A DNA stretch of 64,000 nt. It comes from Candidatus Thiovulum imperiosus (GTDB lineage Bacteria > Campylobacterota > Campylobacteria > Campylobacterales > Thiovulaceae). This document shows positions 3,884-49,897 of this stretch, piece after piece. How positions within the stretch are numbered: position 1 is the first letter of the stretch; every line of letters starts with the position of its first letter. The notes below the pieces were generated by a model. That model had not been told where the DNA came from. It did no database searches and saw only the letters and a program-made list of their open reading frames with translations. The stretch is from positions 1 through 64,000 of the forward strand of contig JAMJTW010000028.1 of assembly GCA_024281175.1 (NCBI GenBank), read 5' to 3'. The translations under genes were made by a program, and so were the position numbers.

Positions 3884-6535
3884 TTAGTCTGTTGCTAGAA
3901 GTCCTTTTTTCGGACCACTTGCACCACAACACTGTTTATATTTTTTCCCGCTACCACAAGGACAAGGTTCATTTCTTTTTGGTTTTTTCCCAACTTGAAT
4001 AGGTTCTCTCTTATTCTCATTACTTCGAACTTCATCTTGTTTTTGAAGAACTTTCTTCTCTTCCTCTCGTTTTTCAATAAACTCTTTGCTCTCTTTTTCA
4101 GCATTTCCAAATTGGATAAGTTGTAGTTCTTTGATTGTCTCAAATTTGATACGACTGACAAATTCATTGAAAAGATGAAAGCTCTCTTTTTTATACTCAA
4201 CAAGAGGGTCTTTCTGATTGTAGCCTCGAAGTCCAATTCCAGTTTTCATAATATCCATTTGGTGGAGATGTTCTCGCCAAGCTCGGTCTAAAGTTTTTAA
4301 ATAGAACTCTTTCTCTATATTTCCTTTGATAGTTGGATCAAGAATTTTCATCTTTTCTGCATAAGAACTCTCTATTTGAGAAATAACTTTTTCTTCAACT
4401 TCATCTGCTTCAAGATTTTCCAATTCAGAAATAGAAATTTCCAACTTCAGCTCCTCTTTTAAAGCTCCAACAAAACCTTCCAAGTTGTAGTCTTCTTGTG
4501 GCAATCCTGAAAAGATAGAGTACTCTTCTAAAAGAATTCCTAAATACTCTTTACGGTTTTCAGAGAGCTTAGAGGTGATGTCATAATTCCAATCAAGAAG
4601 TTCATTTCTAAATTTGAAGACAACTTTTCTCTGCTCATTTGAGACATCATCATATTGAACAATATGTTTTCTACTTTCAAAATGCATTCCCTCAACTCTC
4701 TTTTGAGCTTTTTCAACAGCACGAGTAACCATCCCAGACTCAATATGTTCACCCTCTTCAATTCCAAGTCTATCCATAATTCTCATAATTCGGTCAGCAC
4801 CAAAAATCCGAAGAAGATTATCTTCCATTGAGAGGAAAAACTGACTTGCTCCAGGGTCTCCTTGTCGTCCAGCTCTACCTCGAAGTTGGTTGTCAATTCT
4901 TCGGTTCTCATGTCTCTCTGTTCCTAAAATAAAGAGACCACCAAGCTCTTTGACACCTTCGCCAAGTTTTATATCAACCCCTCGACCAGCCATATTTGTA
5001 GCAATTGTTACAGCACCTTTTTGACCAGCTTTTTTGATAATTTCACCCTCTTGAGCATGGTTTTTAGCATTCAAGACATTTCGAGCTATCTTTTCAGCTT
5101 TTAAGAGTTTTCCAAGATGTTCACTCTTCTCAATTGAAGCTGTTCCAATAAGAACTGGTTGTCCCTTTTTGTGAAGTTCTCGAATTTTAGAAATTACTGC
5201 ATTGAATTTCTCTCTCTCTGTTTTGTAGATGAGGTCATTTTCATCTTTTCTCTGAATTGGAAGATTTGTTGGAATTGAGACAACATCTAAGTTGTAAATT
5301 TCACCAAATTCAGTAGCTTCAGTTTGAGCTGTTCCTGTCATACCAGCAAGTTTTCCATACATTCGGAAATAGTTCTGAAAAGTAATATCAGCAAGAGTTT
5401 GAGACTCCTCTTTTACTGTTACACCCTCTTTCGCTTCAAGTGCTTGGTGAAGTCCATCGGAGTATCTCCTACCATCTGAAAGTCGTCCTGTAAATTCATC
5501 AACAATTACAATTGCTCCCTCTTTGACAACATAATCAACATCTTTTTCAAAAAGATAATTTGCTTTTAGGGATTGGTCAAGATGGTGTGAAAGAATTGCA
5601 TTATCTGGACTATATAAGTTATCTACTTCAAAAAGTTCTTGAGCTTTCTCAATTCCCTCTTCTGTAATCATCACATTTCTATTTTTCTCATCAACTACAA
5701 AATCACCTGTAAGTTCTTCACTCTCTCCAGCTTTGGCAGGTGGTATTTTTTCACCCTTTTCCAGCTGTTTTGCAACTTTATCAGCTCTTATATAGTTATC
5801 AAGTTTTCGGTCTGTTGGACCAGAGATGATAAGAGGAGTCCTAGCTTCATCAATTAGAATACTATCGACCTCATCAACTATTACAAAATTATGCTCTCTC
5901 TGAACCATTTCACTCTTTGAGTATTTCATATTGTCTCGAAGATAGTCAAAACCAAATTCGTTGTTCGTTCCGTAAGTTATATCAGCTTCATACTGCTGTT
6001 TCTTCTCAAAATCATCTTCTAATTTCTCTGTTACAGTTCCAACTGTGAAACCTAAAAAAGTGTAAAGTGGTTCTAATTCCGTAGCATCTCTCTTTGCAAG
6101 ATAATCATTCACTGTTACAAGATGAACACCTTTTCCACTCATCGCGTTTAAGATAATTGGTAGAGTAGCAACAAGAGTTTTCCCTTCTCCAGTTTTCATT
6201 TCAGCAATTCTTCCATCATGAAGAACCATTCCTCCAATAAGCTGGACATCATGATGTCTCATTCCTAAAACTCTTTTACTAACTTCTCTTGTTATAGCAA
6301 AAGAGTCATGAAGAACCTCATCTAAAACCTTTACTCCAGATTTTACTGCCTCTTTCAATTCTGAAAATTTCTCTTTCAGTTCATCATCACTCATTTTTGA
6401 GTAGCTCTCTTCAAGAGAGTTTATCTCTTCCGCTCTCTTTCGATATCTCTTAAGCTCTCTCTCATTTTGAGTTCCGAAAATCTTTCCAAAAATAAACTGG
6501 AAAAAAAGCAATATTTTTGTAAAAAACTCCATCAA
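3884..6535 (-). CDS. secA: SecA preprotein translocase ATPase
   Basis: Motor ATPase that drives unfolded preproteins through SecYEG. It has 883 residues, in the normal range. Walker A is MKTGEGKT at about 113-120 and the DEVD box is at about 221-224, followed by [11 protein letters not shown]. The second helicase domain contains [13 protein letters not shown] and [11 protein letters not shown]. The C-terminus has the zinc-binding SecB/lipid-contact motif [14 protein letters not shown] basic, acidic-rich linker precedes that tail. Adjacent genes are not functionally linked. The 5' side abuts a degenerate repeat element and the 3' side abuts copy A. Confidence 0.98.
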
Positions 6536-6570
6536 TCCCCTTGATTTTTATATTGGTGAAATCATAACAG

Positions 6571-6711
6571 AAATAGGGGAGTGACTAAGTGGCTATTTCT
6601 CTAAAGAGAGTAGTAGTTTAAATCTCATTTCGAACCTTTTAGGGTGAGAAATCTTGAAAGCATGGAAGATTTCTCGAGTAGTTCGAAATGACGGTAGTTT
6701 TATTCCTATTT
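6571..6711. mobile_element. MITE-like element, copy B (degenerate)
   Basis: A worn copy. The left end reads GGGAGTGACTAAGTGG, and the internal arms CTCATTTCGA...GTGAGAAATC and AAGATTTCTC...TTCGAAATGAC are preserved. The right end survives only as CCTATTT, which pairs with AAATAGG at the left edge. No target duplication is visible. The right edge overlaps the stop codon of the DUF1501 gene, so the insertion may have set the end of that protein. Confidence 0.6.
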
Positions 6712-7953
6712 AAGAATAGATTTTATAGCTATTTCTCCTGTTAAGAGATGAGGATTTTCAATTCCAAAAATTTTCTCTATTGTTGAGGCTATGGAGAAAG
6801 GTTCAAATTTTTCAGAATTTTCAATAGGTTTCATATAGACTCGATTTCCAGAGAGTTCAGGTTTAAATATCTCTGTCTCTCCAACTATTTTGCCCATTTT
6901 CAAGTATGTTGGATTATTGCCAAGAACAAATAAGTTGAAAATATTTCCATGGTCCCAACCTAAACTATCATTCAGATTTACATTTCTTCCAAACTCTGTA
7001 AAAACCCAAATTGAGATTTTTCTATTTCTCTCACTTTTTAGATACTCCACTCCAGAGTGTAGAGCTTCAAAAAGTTGATACATTCTACTTTTGTAATTAT
7101 TCACTGCTCCAGAGTGGTCGTCCCAGCCACCAAATTCTATAAATCCTAATTTACTATTGCTGTTATGAACCATCATTTTTAAAGCACTTTTAATACTATT
7201 TCCATAAATCGTATTTGGAAATGATGTAGAAACCTCTTTTTCAGCAATATCATCAACAAAAGTGGCTAACTCTCTTTTTATCACAAAATTACTACTAGCT
7301 TTTTCAAAAAGTGCATTTTCGGTTTCTAAATTTCTTCTATCCGCAAGAGATTGAAGCATTTCATCTTCACCATCTTCAAGATATCCATTTTTTCTCATTG
7401 AGTAAGGATTGTCTAAATTACTATCAATAGTTGAGAAGTTTAGGTATGAAGGTAAGTTCAAATCTCCTTTATGATAGATGATAGGTGTTCCGCCTGTAAA
7501 AGAGAGAGCAGGAAGAACAACACTTTCGGAAATTGCACTATTTTGATTTAAAATATTCAAAATATCAGCAAAGAAACCGCTTTTTTCTGCATTGAGAGAA
7601 CCTGTCTGATTTTGAACTATCTGAATTCCATGAGAACGAGTATTACTCTCTTCTCCTCTAAATATTGTTCTAACTACTGTTAGCTGTTTTGAAGCTAACA
7701 TCTCTTCCATATCACTACCACCAGCTTCTTTCCAAAATCCATTTTCTGTAACTGTAAAACTGTTTGGATATGAGTTCTCACTTAGTCTATTTATATCTGC
7801 AAAATTTGTTAAATTTCCAGCAAGTTGTGAAGAACCTCCAGGTAGAAAAATAGCTAATACTTGAGCTGAATTTGTTTCAAAAACTGTTTGATTAAATTCT
7901 GAGGCAAAACCCGTTGTAGCTAATACTATTAGTTTTAAAAAACTCTTTTTCAT
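6706..7953 (-). CDS. DUF1501 family secreted protein
   Basis: 415-residue exported protein of the DUF1501 group, which is distantly related to the alkaline phosphatase/sulfatase fold. Recognisable family features are an N-terminal signal peptide (about 1-17), the early LAIFLPGGSS strand and the C-terminal blocks FGGWDDHSG, FTEFGRN and GWDHGNIFNLFVLG. Metal-binding Asp/His residues would lie in the GGWDDH and WDHG motifs. It starts 36 bp downstream of frdC and is probably co-transcribed with it. Members are often paired with a DUF1800 gene, which is not seen here. Function is unknown, and its stop codon lies inside a degenerate repeat element. Confidence 0.75.
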   Translation of the reverse strand: MKKSFLKLIVLATTGFASEFNQTVFETNSAQVLAIFLPGGSSQLAGNLTNFADINRLSENSYPNSFTVTENGFWKEAGGSDMEEMLASKQLTVVRTIFRGEESNTRSHGIQIVQNQTGSLNAEKSGFFADILNILNQNSAISESVVLPALSFTGGTPIIYHKGDLNLPSYLNFSTIDSNLDNPYSMRKNGYLEDGEDEMLQSLADRRNLETENALFEKASSNFVIKRELATFVDDIAEKEVSTSFPNTIYGNSIKSALKMMVHNSNSKLGFIEFGGWDDHSGAVNNYKSRMYQLFEALHSGVEYLKSERNRKISIWVFTEFGRNVNLNDSLGWDHGNIFNLFVLGNNPTYLKMGKIVGETEIFKPELSGNRVYMKPIENSEKFEPFSIASTIEKIFGIENPHLLTGEIAIKSILK

Positions 7954-42245: not shown

Positions 42246-43244
42246 TTAAATATTACCAGATTTTTCAGCACCGATTTTTGAAAGAGAATCTGCCAAACTG
42301 TTTTTCTCTCTTTTTATCCAAATCAGCTCTGAATTTGGAATCTGGCTCAAAAACTCTTTTGCTCTTTTCTGAAATGGCTTTAAATGTTCTGCTTTAATTT
42401 TCCACTCTCCATTTACCTGCTTCACTACCAGACTTGAATCTCCAAAAACTCTTAATTTCTGAACTCCACTTTTGACAGCCGTTTCTAAAAGATAGATAAG
42501 TGCCATATATTCAGCTTCATTGTTTGTTCCAACTCCAATATACTCACCTCTCTTATGAACAACTCTACCATCACCTTCTGCAATAGCGAAGCCAACTCCC
42601 ATATCTCCGGGATTTCCAAGAGAAGCTCCATCAAAAAAGCCGTAATACTGCTTATCTTCTAAATCTATTTCTTCTATCTCTATACTTTTCAATTTCTTTT
42701 TTCTCCTATTCCAACTCATTATCTTTTCCACATCTAAAATATCTTCTGGTAAATCTTCTACAATTTTTGAAAATATCTTATATGAGAGTAGAGCATCTTG
42801 ATATCCTCGATGTTTCTCTTTAACTTCAAAACCGAAAAAATCTGATATAGATTTTAAATTGTATTTCTCAAGTAGAAAACTCTTTTGAGCCAGTTTGAAT
42901 GTACATATTTTCAAGTTTTCTACATCGGGAAATTCGTTCTCTAAAGTTCTAATATCATTATTGATATCATGAGCTACAAGAACTGTATCCTCAATAAATA
43001 TGTGAAATTGCAGTAAAACCTCATCTCGCTTTTCTCCACATTTCAACTCATTTTCAGTAATACCTGTAAGTTCTGTAACAATTGGGTCAAGAGGTTTATC
43101 ACATCTAATTACTTTATCAAACTCTTCAATCACTCTACCATTCTGAATTTTAATTGCACCAATTTCGATTATATAAGTACTCTTTTCATAAGTGTTCCAT
43201 TCTAAATCGAAAATTGTAAAAACAACATCTTTAAACCGTTTCAA
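42246..43244 (-). CDS. DnaQ-like 3'-5' exonuclease fused to RNase HI
   Basis: 332 residues with two catalytic domains. Residues 7-165 are a DEDDh exonuclease: Asp13 and Glu15 in FDLEWN, the Asp in HDINND, and HRGYQD near the end. Residues about 195-328 are RNase HI: FFDGASLGNPG, NNEAEYMALI, FGDSSLVVKQVNGEW and NSLADSLSK supply the four acidic residues. Both active sites look intact. It would trim DNA ends and remove RNA from hybrids in replication or repair. It sits 2 bp from def. Confidence 0.9.
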   Translation of the reverse strand: MKRFKDVVFTIFDLEWNTYEKSTYIIEIGAIKIQNGRVIEEFDKVIRCDKPLDPIVTELTGITENELKCGEKRDEVLLQFHIFIEDTVLVAHDINNDIRTLENEFPDVENLKICTFKLAQKSFLLEKYNLKSISDFFGFEVKEKHRGYQDALLSYKIFSKIVEDLPEDILDVEKIMSWNRRKKKLKSIEIEEIDLEDKQYYGFFDGASLGNPGDMGVGFAIAEGDGRVVHKRGEYIGVGTNNEAEYMALIYLLETAVKSGVQKLRVFGDSSLVVKQVNGEWKIKAEHLKPFQKRAKEFLSQIPNSELIWIKREKNSLADSLSKIGAEKSGNI

Positions 43245-45803: not shown

Positions 45804-46664
45804 ATGTATAAAATTGTAAATGGAAGATTTATCTCAAAATATGATGGTTTTCAAAATATAGATTTTTTCACAATTTTAAAGTGGCAACTTTCGAAAATTG
45901 GAAAGAGAAAAGCAGAGAATTATAAATTAGAAATTTTAAAAGAGAAGTTACCAACCTCATCAAACTTTATATCTTGGTTGGGACACTCTACTCTTCTAAT
46001 TCAAATAGATGGAGTTAGAGTTCTTACAGACCCTGTTTTTGGAGATATTCCATTTTTTAAAAGAAGAGTTGAGTTTCCATATAGTTTAGAAGAGTTAGGA
46101 AAGATAGATTACACTCTGATTTCACATTCTCATTATGACCATTTGGATTTAAACTCTCTGAAAAAGTTGGATAGCAAAATAGTTGCTCCCTTAAATATGG
46201 GAAAATATTTAAAAGGTTTGGATTTTGTAGAACTAGATTGGTTTGAAAGTTTGCCAGATTTTCCTATCACTCTACTTCCTGCTAAACATTGGGGTAGAAG
46301 AACTGCATTTGATACAAATAGAACTTTATGGGGAAGTTATCTAATTAGAGATATCTATTTTGCTGGAGACACATCTTATAGCGACCACTTTTTAGAAATT
46401 GGAAAAAAGTTTGATATCAAAATAGCTCTTATGCCAATTGGAGCTTATAAACCTGAAAAGATAATGAGAAATAATCATATAAATCCAAAAGAGGCTGTTC
46501 AAGGAAGTTTAGATTTAAAAGCCGAATTCATGATACCAATTCATTATGGAACTTTCAAATTGAGTGATGAACCGATGGCAGAACCTTTAGAGTGGGCTAG
46601 AAAAGAGGCTGTTAAAGTAAATTTAAAAGCTCTAAAGATTGGTGAAGTTTTAATGATACCTTAA
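45804..46664 (+). CDS. Metallo-beta-lactamase-fold hydrolase, NAPE-PLD/UlaG-like
   Basis: 286 residues. SHSHYDHLD is the HxHxDH zinc motif, and PAKHWGRRT, FAGDTSYSDHF and PIHYGTFKLSDEP supply the remaining ligands. ISWLGHSTLLIQIDGVRVLTDPVF is the typical start of the NAPE-PLD-like branch. That branch hydrolyses phosphodiester lipids in animals; the bacterial substrate is usually unknown. It is divergent from lepA. Its stop lies 17 bp from the operator-like site of the zinc operon, so a zinc enzyme stands next to a zinc-uptake unit, which may be chance. Confidence 0.85.
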   Translation: MYKIVNGRFISKYDGFQNIDFFTILKWQLSKIGKRKAENYKLEILKEKLPTSSNFISWLGHSTLLIQIDGVRVLTDPVFGDIPFFKRRVEFPYSLEELGKIDYTLISHSHYDHLDLNSLKKLDSKIVAPLNMGKYLKGLDFVELDWFESLPDFPITLLPAKHWGRRTAFDTNRTLWGSYLIRDIYFAGDTSYSDHFLEIGKKFDIKIALMPIGAYKPEKIMRNNHINPKEAVQGSLDLKAEFMIPIHYGTFKLSDEPMAEPLEWARKEAVKVNLKALKIGEVLMIP

Positions 46665-46680
46665 ATGCTTGAGTGTATAG

Positions 46681-46697
46681 ATGCGACTTAGTTGCAT
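46681..46697 (+). promoter_or_regulatory. Candidate Zur/Fur-family operator
   Basis: ATGCGACTTAGTTGCAT is a 7-3-7 palindrome with one mismatch. An outer inverted repeat, TTAAATGC (46661-46668) and GCATTTAA (46694-46701), frames it. It lies 28 bp before the ATG of the Fur-family gene and overlaps the expected promoter, next to TAATAC at 46710-46715. Autoregulation of the operon is inferred. Confidence 0.5.
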
Positions 46698-46724
46698 TTA
46701 AACCTTGTCTAATACTATTTCAAC

Positions 46725-47075
46725 ATGAATTTCATTAAAAACCTTAAAGAGAGTGGTTTGAAAGCCACTCCAAAAAGAGTAGCACTTTTAGAATATCTCT
46801 ATTCTCAAAACTCTCCACAAAGTTATGAAGATATGAGAAGAATTTTTTCCATGGATAAAGCAACTTTTTATAGAAATATGCATAGCTTTGAAGATGCTGG
46901 TTTTGTGAAGTGTGTTGAGACTTCAGAACGGCGATATTATGAGTATATTAGAACAGAACACCCTCACTTCTTATGTCTACATTGTGGAGAAGTTGAGTGT
47001 TTAAAAGAAGCCTCTTTTTTAAATGGTTATGAAATCCAAACAGTTCAAGGACGGTGTCCTAAATGCAAGGAATAA
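46725..47075 (+). CDS. zur: Fur-family metalloregulator, probably Zur
   Basis: 116 residues, a short member. The winged helix covers about 1-80, with KATPKRVALLEYLY and KATFYRNMHSFEDAGFVKCV. The metal regions include HPHFLCLHCGEVEC and CPKC, the two CxxC pairs of the structural zinc site. The gene is the first of an operon with a His-rich lipoprotein and a ZnuD-like receptor, which points to zinc rather than iron. The C-terminal dimerisation domain is shorter than in Fur. Ferric regulation remains possible. Confidence 0.75.
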   Translation: MNFIKNLKESGLKATPKRVALLEYLYSQNSPQSYEDMRRIFSMDKATFYRNMHSFEDAGFVKCVETSERRYYEYIRTEHPHFLCLHCGEVECLKEASFLNGYEIQTVQGRCPKCKE

Positions 47076-47076
47076 A

Positions 47077-47964
47077 ATGAAGAGATTAAGTTTAGTTTTA
47101 ATTCTACTTTTTGCTGGTTGCGACTCATCAGATAGTGATGAGAGTTCTAGTTCTCTAGAAATTGAGGGTGATAAGACTCTTATCTTTTACAACAGTAACA
47201 CTCAAAACCAGTATGTCTACTTTACAGAAACTGGAGAAGTTCAGAATTTGAATTTAGACTCTGAAAGTAACTTCTACATGCCAAATAAGGATAGAGGAAC
47301 TATGTTCTACTGGGCTGATGAGTATACAGATGGTGAAGTTGATGAGAAAGTTGTAATGCTCAAAGAAAGTTTTGAGGGAAATATCTCTTATCAAAATCTA
47401 ATATATATTGGACATTTTCACGATACAGAACTTGCTTCTCACTCTCCAGATGAGTTTGCTCCTGAAAATATAAGTGAAGCAAAAGTGAATGCTCTAATTC
47501 GTCTCAACGACTATCTTACAGAACAGAAAGAGATAGAAGGGGAGATTTCTGAAGCTCTAAGTGAAGAGAATGAAACTCTCTGTAACTTCTTTGTCCCTTT
47601 TCACGAAGAGCATGAAGAAACAGGGGAAGAAGAGGAACATGAGGAAGTTCCACACTTTGCACTTTCAGAAACTGGAAAACTTTACATTTTTACAGAAGAG
47701 GAGAGTGGACTTCAGAAGATACAAGCTCCAGTAGTTCTTGATGGTGTTACAGAGTGTTCAAAAAGTGGTAGTGGTATCACCTCATCACCAGAAGGGGTTT
47801 TTATTTTCTCAGAAGAGACTCAAAAACTCTATCTTGTAGATGCTCACGGTATGGATTACCATCAACACAGTCAATGGTCACTAAGTGAATTTCTTCCAAA
47901 CAGTTTTGAAGCTACACAGATGATTGGATTTGGTTTAGGAGAAGATGCGAACCATACTCATTAG
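47077..47964 (+). CDS. His/Glu-rich lipoprotein of the zinc operon
   Basis: 295 residues from the ATG at 47077, which follows AAGGA; a longer frame would run into the regulator gene. The lipobox FAGC gives a mature Cys17 or so. Metal-binding-looking clusters are HFHDTELASHSPDE, PFHEEHEETGEEEEHEE, HGMDYHQHSQ and the terminal NHTH. No known fold is evident. It sits between a Zur-like gene and the ZnuD-like receptor, overlapping the receptor by 20 bp, so it probably captures zinc at the cell surface or in the periplasm. This is inference. Confidence 0.7.
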   Translation: MKRLSLVLILLFAGCDSSDSDESSSSLEIEGDKTLIFYNSNTQNQYVYFTETGEVQNLNLDSESNFYMPNKDRGTMFYWADEYTDGEVDEKVVMLKESFEGNISYQNLIYIGHFHDTELASHSPDEFAPENISEAKVNALIRLNDYLTEQKEIEGEISEALSEENETLCNFFVPFHEEHEETGEEEEHEEVPHFALSETGKLYIFTEEESGLQKIQAPVVLDGVTECSKSGSGITSSPEGVFIFSEETQKLYLVDAHGMDYHQHSQWSLSEFLPNSFEATQMIGFGLGEDANHTH

Positions 47965-49861
47965 TCTAATTCTCTTTTCCCCTCTTTTTGGGGTTCAGGT
48001 AGATTTAGAGAGCATTACTGTTCAGAGTGAAAAGGAAGTTGCAAAAAAACTCTCTTCCGAACTAGCTTTAGAGTCAGAAGGTGAAACACTTGGAGACTTT
48101 CTACAAAATGAAACTTTCATAGACTCTGCAACTTATGGTTCAGCAGTTGGAAGACCTGTTGTAAAAGGGCTTGACGGATATCGAGTTGGAATTACACAAG
48201 GTAATGTAGTTCTCAATGACCTTTCAGCAATGAGTCAAGACCATGCAGTTGGAACAGCACCTCGAGTTTCTGAAAGAATAGAGTTTGTCAAAGGCTCTTC
48301 CTCTCTACTTTATGGAAATTATAGTGGTGGAGTGGTTAGAGTTGAGGGAGCAGAGCATCAAAGAGAGACTTTCCAAGGATTTCGAGGAAATGGTGAAATT
48401 TCAAATTTTGGTTGGCTTCTTGGTGGAAGTTTGGGAGTTTCAAAAAATGACTTCTCTCTACAAGCTGATACATACTTTCATGAAGCTGATGATGATATTT
48501 CTGATATTACAACTTTTCAAAATCACTTTGTTTTTGGATATAGATTTGGAGATAGTATTTTGAAGTTGTATGGAGATTTTCTTCGAAATGACTACTCTAT
48601 TCCAAATCGTTCAGCTGAAGAGACTCGAATTGATATGGAGCAGGAGAAATTTGGAGCTGTTTGGCATTTTGGAAAACATCAATTTGAAATTCAGAAAAGT
48701 GATTATCTCCATTATGAAACAGAGGGTGGTCGAAAAGATGGACTCTTTGGTCAAGAGCAGAGTTCTGTTTCTGCCCTACTAAATTTTACTTCTGGAGATT
48801 GGGAACATAAAGTTCATTTACAATATCTTCAGAGTGAGTTGCAAGTTTGTCATGAGCATGGAAAGTGTGATAGTTTCTATGATGCACCTCGAACAGAAGT
48901 TGTAGATGGTATTTCACTTGGTAGCGAAATACCTTTTTCTCATGGTCATCCAATGCCAAACAGTAGTGAAAGAAATCTAGTTCTTGCATTCTCTCCAAAA
49001 TTAACTCTTTTAGATGATGAGGTAGGATTTGGAGTTAGAATTCAAAATCGGGAAATCGATTTGGACTCCAAAAATATACAGGAGCAGTGGTTACAAAATA
49101 GAGATTATTACAACTCAATTTCAGATACAGCTTTTAGCTTCTCTACTGATTGGAAAAGATACTTTGGTCTTCACTTTTTTCAACTCTCTCTCGGATATTT
49201 GGAAAGGCTTCCCGCAAGTAGTGAACTCTATTGGAACGGTTTTCACCACGCAACAGAGAGTTATATCTTAGGAGATGCTGAACTTGACTCTGAAACTTCT
49301 CTAAATTTTGATGCAGATTTACATCTCCATTTTGGAAATTGGGAAACAGAAATTGCTGGATACCATTACCATTTTTGGAACTATATCTACCAATCTCCCC
49401 TCCAAGATATAAAAGACCCTTTTCACGGTTCACCTGTCTGGATAATGCGTGGAGTTCCTGCAGATATTTACGGTTTCTCTTTCCAAGAAAAGTATAGAAA
49501 AGAGATAGAGAAACATAAGCTCCAAATCTCTTTTGGTTTAGAAACAATTCGAGGCGAAACTTCCGATGGAAATCTACCTCGTATCTCTCCTTGGAACACT
49601 TTTGTAGAAATTGAAGATAAGTATGGAAATTTTCAAGGAAGTCTAAAATATAAGTATATAGACAAGAGCAGATTTGAAGCTAAAAATGAGAGTAGCACAA
49701 GCGGATACAGCTGGTTGAGTGGTAGACTCTCTTATAAAAACTTCTATCTAAAAGGCGAAAACCTCCTAGATGTAGAAGCTCGAAACCATCTCTCATTTCT
49801 AAAAGAGACAGCACAACTTCCTGGAAGAGAAATCTCTTTTGGATTTGAAACCTCTTTTTAA
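47945..49861 (+). CDS. znuD: TonB-dependent receptor, ZnuD-like
   Basis: 638-residue outer-membrane receptor. The signal peptide covers about 1-16. The plug (about 40-150) has VGRPVVKGLDGYRV, AMSQDHAVGTAP and ERIEFVKGSSSLLYGNYSGG, the pattern of the zinc receptor ZnuD. Two barrel loops carry CHEHGKCDS and SHGHPMP, like the His/Cys zinc-capture loops of ZnuD. The C-terminus ends in SFGFETSF with a terminal Phe. No TonB gene is in the window. The 5' end overlaps the lipoprotein gene, and a strong terminator follows. Confidence 0.85.
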   Translation: MRTILISLILFSPLFGVQVDLESITVQSEKEVAKKLSSELALESEGETLGDFLQNETFIDSATYGSAVGRPVVKGLDGYRVGITQGNVVLNDLSAMSQDHAVGTAPRVSERIEFVKGSSSLLYGNYSGGVVRVEGAEHQRETFQGFRGNGEISNFGWLLGGSLGVSKNDFSLQADTYFHEADDDISDITTFQNHFVFGYRFGDSILKLYGDFLRNDYSIPNRSAEETRIDMEQEKFGAVWHFGKHQFEIQKSDYLHYETEGGRKDGLFGQEQSSVSALLNFTSGDWEHKVHLQYLQSELQVCHEHGKCDSFYDAPRTEVVDGISLGSEIPFSHGHPMPNSSERNLVLAFSPKLTLLDDEVGFGVRIQNREIDLDSKNIQEQWLQNRDYYNSISDTAFSFSTDWKRYFGLHFFQLSLGYLERLPASSELYWNGFHHATESYILGDAELDSETSLNFDADLHLHFGNWETEIAGYHYHFWNYIYQSPLQDIKDPFHGSPVWIMRGVPADIYGFSFQEKYRKEIEKHKLQISFGLETIRGETSDGNLPRISPWNTFVEIEDKYGNFQGSLKYKYIDKSRFEAKNESSTSGYSWLSGRLSYKNFYLKGENLLDVEARNHLSFLKETAQLPGREISFGFETSF

Positions 49862-49869
49862 GAAGTAGT

Positions 49870-49897
49870 GAAGAGTCTATTTAGAGACTCTTCTTTT
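49870..49897. terminator. Rho-independent terminator after the zinc operon
   Basis: GAAGAGTCT and AGACTCTTC form a 9-bp stem with a 6-nt loop followed by TTTT. It lies between the convergent receptor and McrB-like genes and overlaps the stop of the latter, so it may act in both directions. Confidence 0.8.

Follow-up and report, generated by a model that had tools for sequence, protein, structure and literature searches.

The operon and its boundaries

The window, by which we mean the whole stretch of 64,000 nucleotides of Candidatus Thiovulum imperiosus DNA that was analysed, contains on its plus strand an operon of three open reading frames (46725-49861), in which the gene of a regulator is followed by that of a lipoprotein and then by that of a ZnuD-like receptor. 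The first gene (46725..47075, plus strand) encodes a short Fur-family, Zur-like regulator of 116 aa. The second (47077..47964, plus strand) encodes a His/Glu-rich lipoprotein of 295 aa, counted from the ATG at 47077, and the third (47945..49861, plus strand) encodes a TonB-dependent receptor of 638 aa. A reading made from the sequence alone had described these genes as abutting or overlapping and as ending at a strong terminator, and our analysis agreed with it on both points. That is, the gap between the regulator and lipoprotein genes is 1 base, and the lipoprotein and receptor genes overlap by 20 bases; AAGGA ahead of the lipoprotein gene and AGGAG ahead of the receptor gene are Shine-Dalgarno-like. 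The intrinsic terminator hairpin (49870..49893, plus strand) has a 9-bp stem followed by TTTT. The folding energy of this region was -15.1 kcal/mol, and none of 200 shuffled sequences folded as well (z-score -3.17). The hairpin is probably common to both converging transcripts.

The sequence-only reading had placed the operon at 46661-49897. The three genes lie within this span, but its start has to be moved, because 46661-46664 is the 3' end of an upstream gene whose product has a metallo-beta-lactamase fold. The operon proper begins with a candidate Zur operator, the palindrome ATGCGACTTAGTTGCAT (46681..46697, plus strand). A scan for a sigma-70 promoter 5' of the regulator gene found none. 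Elsewhere in the window, a single open reading frame (42246-43244) combines a DnaQ-like exonuclease domain with an RNase H domain (Pfam RNase_T and RVT_3).

Conserved residues of the receptor, the lipoprotein and the regulator

The receptor possesses a Plug domain (PF07715) and a TonB barrel (PF00593), both above the Pfam cut-offs. Its top NCBIfam model was ZnuD (2.8e-44) and its sole sequence match in the PDB was also ZnuD (4rdr, 1.3e-21), as expected from the earlier claim of a ZnuD-like receptor. The score of the receptor with NF038289 was 151.8 bits, which does not reach the cut-off of 950; this model is of the 'exception' type in NCBIfam and hence narrow. We therefore call the receptor 'ZnuD-like' rather than ZnuD.

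According to the structure paper on neisserial ZnuD (PMC4557270), the zinc ligands of its high-affinity site are Asp99, His100, Glu340 and His499. In the PDB alignment these ligands correspond to D99, H100, E258 and H434 of the receptor, and they are conserved in all 13 relatives compared. The placement of E258 depends on a short, low-scoring segment of the alignment, yet its motif, DYxHxE, is plain. Two further motifs, VCHEHGxC (301-308) and HxHPMP (333-338), are nearly or fully invariant in the receptors of 23 genomes. The receptor thus shares with ZnuD of Neisseria meningitidis the fold, the four zinc ligands and the His/Cys-rich motifs of the extracellular loops, and judging from its sequence we infer that it imports zinc. 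It differs from ZnuD in its low score (about 150 bits against the cut-off of 950 of the NCBI model) and in being obligately paired with a lipoprotein, a partner that is not named in the accessible parts of the ZnuD structure paper and of a review on Zur.

The lipobox cysteine of the lipoprotein is C15. Four His-rich patches and the lack of a known family had been noticed from the sequence alone; we located all four patches (113-122, 176-193, 257-264 and 293-295), and the protein had no match in Pfam or NCBIfam, by which membership of a known family was ruled out. The protein belongs, as far as sequence comparison can tell, to an undescribed family with testable putative zinc-binding residues. 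C15, H113, H122, C169, C227, D255, H257, H262 and H264 are invariant in all 23 genomes, and H115 is kept in 22 of them. The loop near 176-193 and the C-terminus are rich in His and Glu and vary in length among the members, and it is in this same loop and tail that stretches of His, Asp and Glu grow; one gammaproteobacterial member (L096) has long DHDHDG-type runs in its His/Glu-rich variable region. The protein also has an HG hairpin (H257-G258), and most members have a His tail. These features suggest that the lipoprotein may bind zinc.

The AlphaFold model of the lipoprotein was of fairly high confidence, its mean pLDDT being 80.8. The fold matches of this model in the PDB were mostly beta-propellers, but with TM-scores of 0.2-0.3, and one member of the family weakly matched the propeller repeat model PD40 (0.0011). 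From these weak matches, a propeller fold seems likely. In E. coli, Asp at position +2 favours retention of lipoproteins in the inner membrane; the lipoprotein of the window has Asp at +2, and its relatives mostly have Gly. Slam, a surface-export factor, was absent in 18 of the 19 carriers, and export of the lipoprotein to the surface by Slam was rejected on this ground. Exposure on the surface would therefore proceed without a known route.

The regulator matched Pfam FUR (PF01475, 1.9e-14). Its best NCBIfam models were PerR and Fur, all of them far below the cut-off, and there was no Zur model among its NCBIfam matches. C84, C87, C111 and C114, which form a CxxC...CxxC arrangement, are invariant in 12 relatives together with H79, H81 and C92. 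The predicted structure is a Fur fold, in which a winged helix is joined to an all-beta domain, and its C-terminal domain is shortened and free of helix; the Foldseek matches were Fur, PerR, Mur and Zur. The regulator is shorter than standard Fur proteins, and the short form is kept in the 12 relatives. This shortness is not unique, since the short cyanobacterial Zur 7ne9 (118 residues) was among the top fold matches. Close relatives of the regulator adjoin znuA in G012, G031, G083, G091 and L051. The designation 'Zur-like' in the sequence-only reading thus held by the genomic context, that is, the znuA neighbours and the operators, but not by sequence alone, by which the protein can be assigned to the Fur family. 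It resembles Zur in its fold, its two CxxC pairs and its zinc-uptake neighbours and operators, and it differs in its length of 116 aa, in the helix-free C-terminal domain of the predicted structure and in its operator, which is unlike that of the gammaproteobacterial Zur.

Pairing, distribution and zinc context

Whether the genes co-occur in other genomes had been proposed beforehand as a check. In each of the 23 genomes examined, of which 13 are Campylobacterota and 10 are Gammaproteobacteria, the lipoprotein gene was found directly upstream of the receptor gene on the same strand with a spacing of -50 to +251, about 20 of these 23 loci being independent because of the close pairs L053/L054, L088/L089 and L090/L091. 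In an even sample of 397 genomes of the phylum, each gene was present in 4, and these were the same 4 for both; of 100 related genomes, the same 5 contained the lipoprotein and a strong match to the receptor. A search of genome contigs with a pattern from the single lipoprotein sequence gave no match, whereas an alignment-based scan of GTDB contigs gave 13 loci, two of them in Gammaproteobacteria. In the order of Thiomicrorhabdus marina, 8 of 63 genomes carry the lipoprotein, as do 3 of the 369 genomes that were sampled from its class. The divergences of the lipoprotein and the receptor are correlated (r = 0.89, a value reached in none of 2000 permutations), as is partly expected from shared descent. 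The occurrence of the same pair in two distant bacterial groups suggests that the lipoprotein and the receptor work together. We also considered carriage of the module by a plasmid or virus and rejected it, as no such carriage of the pair was found.

The palindrome ATGCRACTWAGTYGCAT is present before the operon of the window, before the operon of G001 and, elsewhere, between zur-like and znuA genes; it is also present before the lipoprotein or receptor genes in L050 and L051. In 154 kb there were 12 sites with at least 13 of 14 matching positions, compared with 0.0 in shuffled sequences; the first two supplied the consensus and are therefore not independent, and the other ten are independent. 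We consider this common palindrome a candidate Zur operator for the Campylobacterota, and the accessible part of the Zur review makes no mention of Campylobacter or Helicobacter. Together with the relatives beside znuA, the shared operator points to control of zinc-uptake genes by the regulator. In the organism's own genome, 46681-46697 is the sole exact copy; further copies were limited to sites with 2 mismatches, which were not above the reversed-pattern control. This genome has ZnuA and ZnuB, and no operator was found near either gene, so that the regulon here may consist of this operon alone. In L047, L048, L053, L057, L058 and L059, either no regulator gene adjoins the pair or no operator can be recognised.

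In two gammaproteobacterial loci, L055 from the culturable Thiomicrorhabdus marina and L056, the gene order is zur, zigA, lipoprotein and receptor, and the ZigA proteins scored above the equivalog cut-off. Classical gammaproteobacterial Zur boxes, defined by a consensus from general knowledge, numbered 10 against 1.7 expected, and they sit in the spaces ahead of zigA, of the lipoprotein gene or of the small neighbour of the lipoprotein gene. The context indicates that the metal is zinc and not iron or nickel. The function in zinc acquisition proposed from the sequence alone therefore gained support from the conserved ZnuD ligands, from the znuA, zur and zigA neighbours and from the common Zur-type operators.

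Several other genes were observed near the pair. In many loci, although not in the window or in G001, a small His-containing membrane protein precedes the lipoprotein (L047 3470-3826, L053 3024-3365, L057 5529-5879, L058 5655-5927, L059 5515-5817, L088 4794-5108 and L090 3830-4192). Some of these proteins have a weak likeness to DUF2607/DUF2946, and they are possibly a further zinc-related part. A dense zinc-related island at 575-9000 of L049 encodes a ZnuA-type binding protein, a DksA-like protein, a CobW-type GTPase and two Fur-family regulators, followed by the lipoprotein and the receptor. A second TonB receptor without a lipoprotein of its own lies beside the pair in L047 (1105-3225), L051 (3563-5704) and L087 (1-1527). 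The second receptors of L047 and L051 match haem, siderophore and ZnuD models, and that of L051 comes with a separate copy of the palindrome. In the zinc operon of L086, zur and zigA have been separated by the insertion of transposase-like genes (5983-7214).

A putative zinc-import module and its alternatives

We think it rather probable that the operon encodes a Zur-controlled module for zinc import, whose lipoprotein is a zinc-binding protein of the outer membrane that exchanges the metal, in one direction or the other, with the receptor. When zinc in the cytoplasm is low, the Zur-like repressor would dissociate from the palindrome (46681-46697), and the whole operon, the repressor gene included, would then be expressed. 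The lipidated Cys15 would anchor the lipoprotein in the outer membrane. Its variable His/Glu-rich loop and its His tail may collect loosely held zinc, and two clusters of His, H113/H115/H122 and H257/H262/H264 with D255, may hold the metal. The lipoprotein would deliver zinc to the site formed by D99, H100, E258 and H434 of the ZnuD-like receptor for TonB-driven import, and ZnuABC would carry it on into the cytoplasm. Points that speak against this reading are the Asp at +2 of the window's lipoprotein, the near-complete lack of Slam, the loci in which a regulator or operator is missing, and the absence of the operator from znuA and znuB of the same genome.

Among the lipoproteins that partner TonB receptors, the best-studied ones capture the substrate and load it. 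For this reason, and because the variable His loops have the look of collectors, we favour capture and loading, and we consider it plausible that the lipoprotein would hand zinc over to the receptor. For the two directions of transfer there are two precedents, BtuG and AztD. BtuG is a beta-propeller surface lipoprotein that loads the TonB receptor BtuB (PMC10404256). As in the BtuB-BtuG system for vitamin B12 in Bacteroides, the TonB receptor and the lipoprotein are here encoded in one operon, and the lipoprotein is encoded with its receptor in 23 of 23 genomes. The two systems differ in substrate, phylum and sequence; BtuG is a substrate-binding propeller, whereas the likeness of the window lipoprotein to a propeller is weak and its surface location is only putative.

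AztD is a periplasmic zinc-binding beta-propeller, in which a C-terminal His and a conserved disulfide take part in a His-Gly hairpin site (PMC6689063). The window lipoprotein resembles AztD in its zinc context, its richness in His, its possible propeller, which in AztD has eight blades, and its His-Gly hairpin, so that it might instead be periplasmic, where it would take zinc from the receptor and either store it or deliver it to ZnuA, much as AztD delivers zinc to AztC. The HG hairpin, the His tail of most members, the two invariant Cys, the weakly propeller-like model and the absence of Slam in 18 of 19 carriers all agree with such a direction. However, a PDB search with a profile of 13 lipoproteins matched none of the AztD chains, even with E values up to 10, and on this result we rejected the identity of the lipoprotein with AztD. 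The lipoprotein is moreover lipidated, and in every genome its partner is an outer-membrane TonB receptor and not an ABC transporter such as AztABC. We regard transfer in the AztD direction as somewhat unlikely, and yet as a serious rival of capture and loading. Import of another metal or of a metal-chelator complex (copper, nickel, cobalt or a zincophore) seems improbable to us. TonB receptors do differ in substrate, DUF2946/DUF2607-like small His proteins lie upstream in some loci, and nearby second receptors match haem, siderophore and copper models besides ZnuD; nevertheless, all four zinc ligands of ZnuD are kept, the pair is surrounded by ZigA, Zur, ZnuA and Zur boxes, and no metallophore genes were noticed in the flanks inspected. 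We think it very improbable that the lipoprotein serves the receptor in its structure or assembly and has His residues that merely stabilise it, because the invariance is centred on His in two clusters and the runs of His, Asp and Glu grow in unconserved loops, as would suit the collection of metal, although obligate pairing with overlapping genes would suit any physical partner.

In a more specific form, which we put forward only tentatively, the zinc-import module would be a two-part outer-membrane receptor, in which a propeller-like surface lipoprotein captures zinc and forms a lid on the ZnuD-type receptor. It would be a metal counterpart of BtuG-BtuB, common to sulfur-associated Campylobacterota and Gammaproteobacteria. 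Each element resembles something known, and the literature searched, which was thin in subscription journals, yielded no description of a lipoprotein linked to zinc and encoded next to a TonB receptor; within that literature the obligate combination of this lipoprotein with a ZnuD-type receptor is apparently new. The way in which bacteria concentrate free zinc at their surface, ahead of its uptake by a receptor, is poorly understood. If our proposal is true, the obligate lipoprotein partner would extend lipoprotein-assisted TonB import to bare metal ions.
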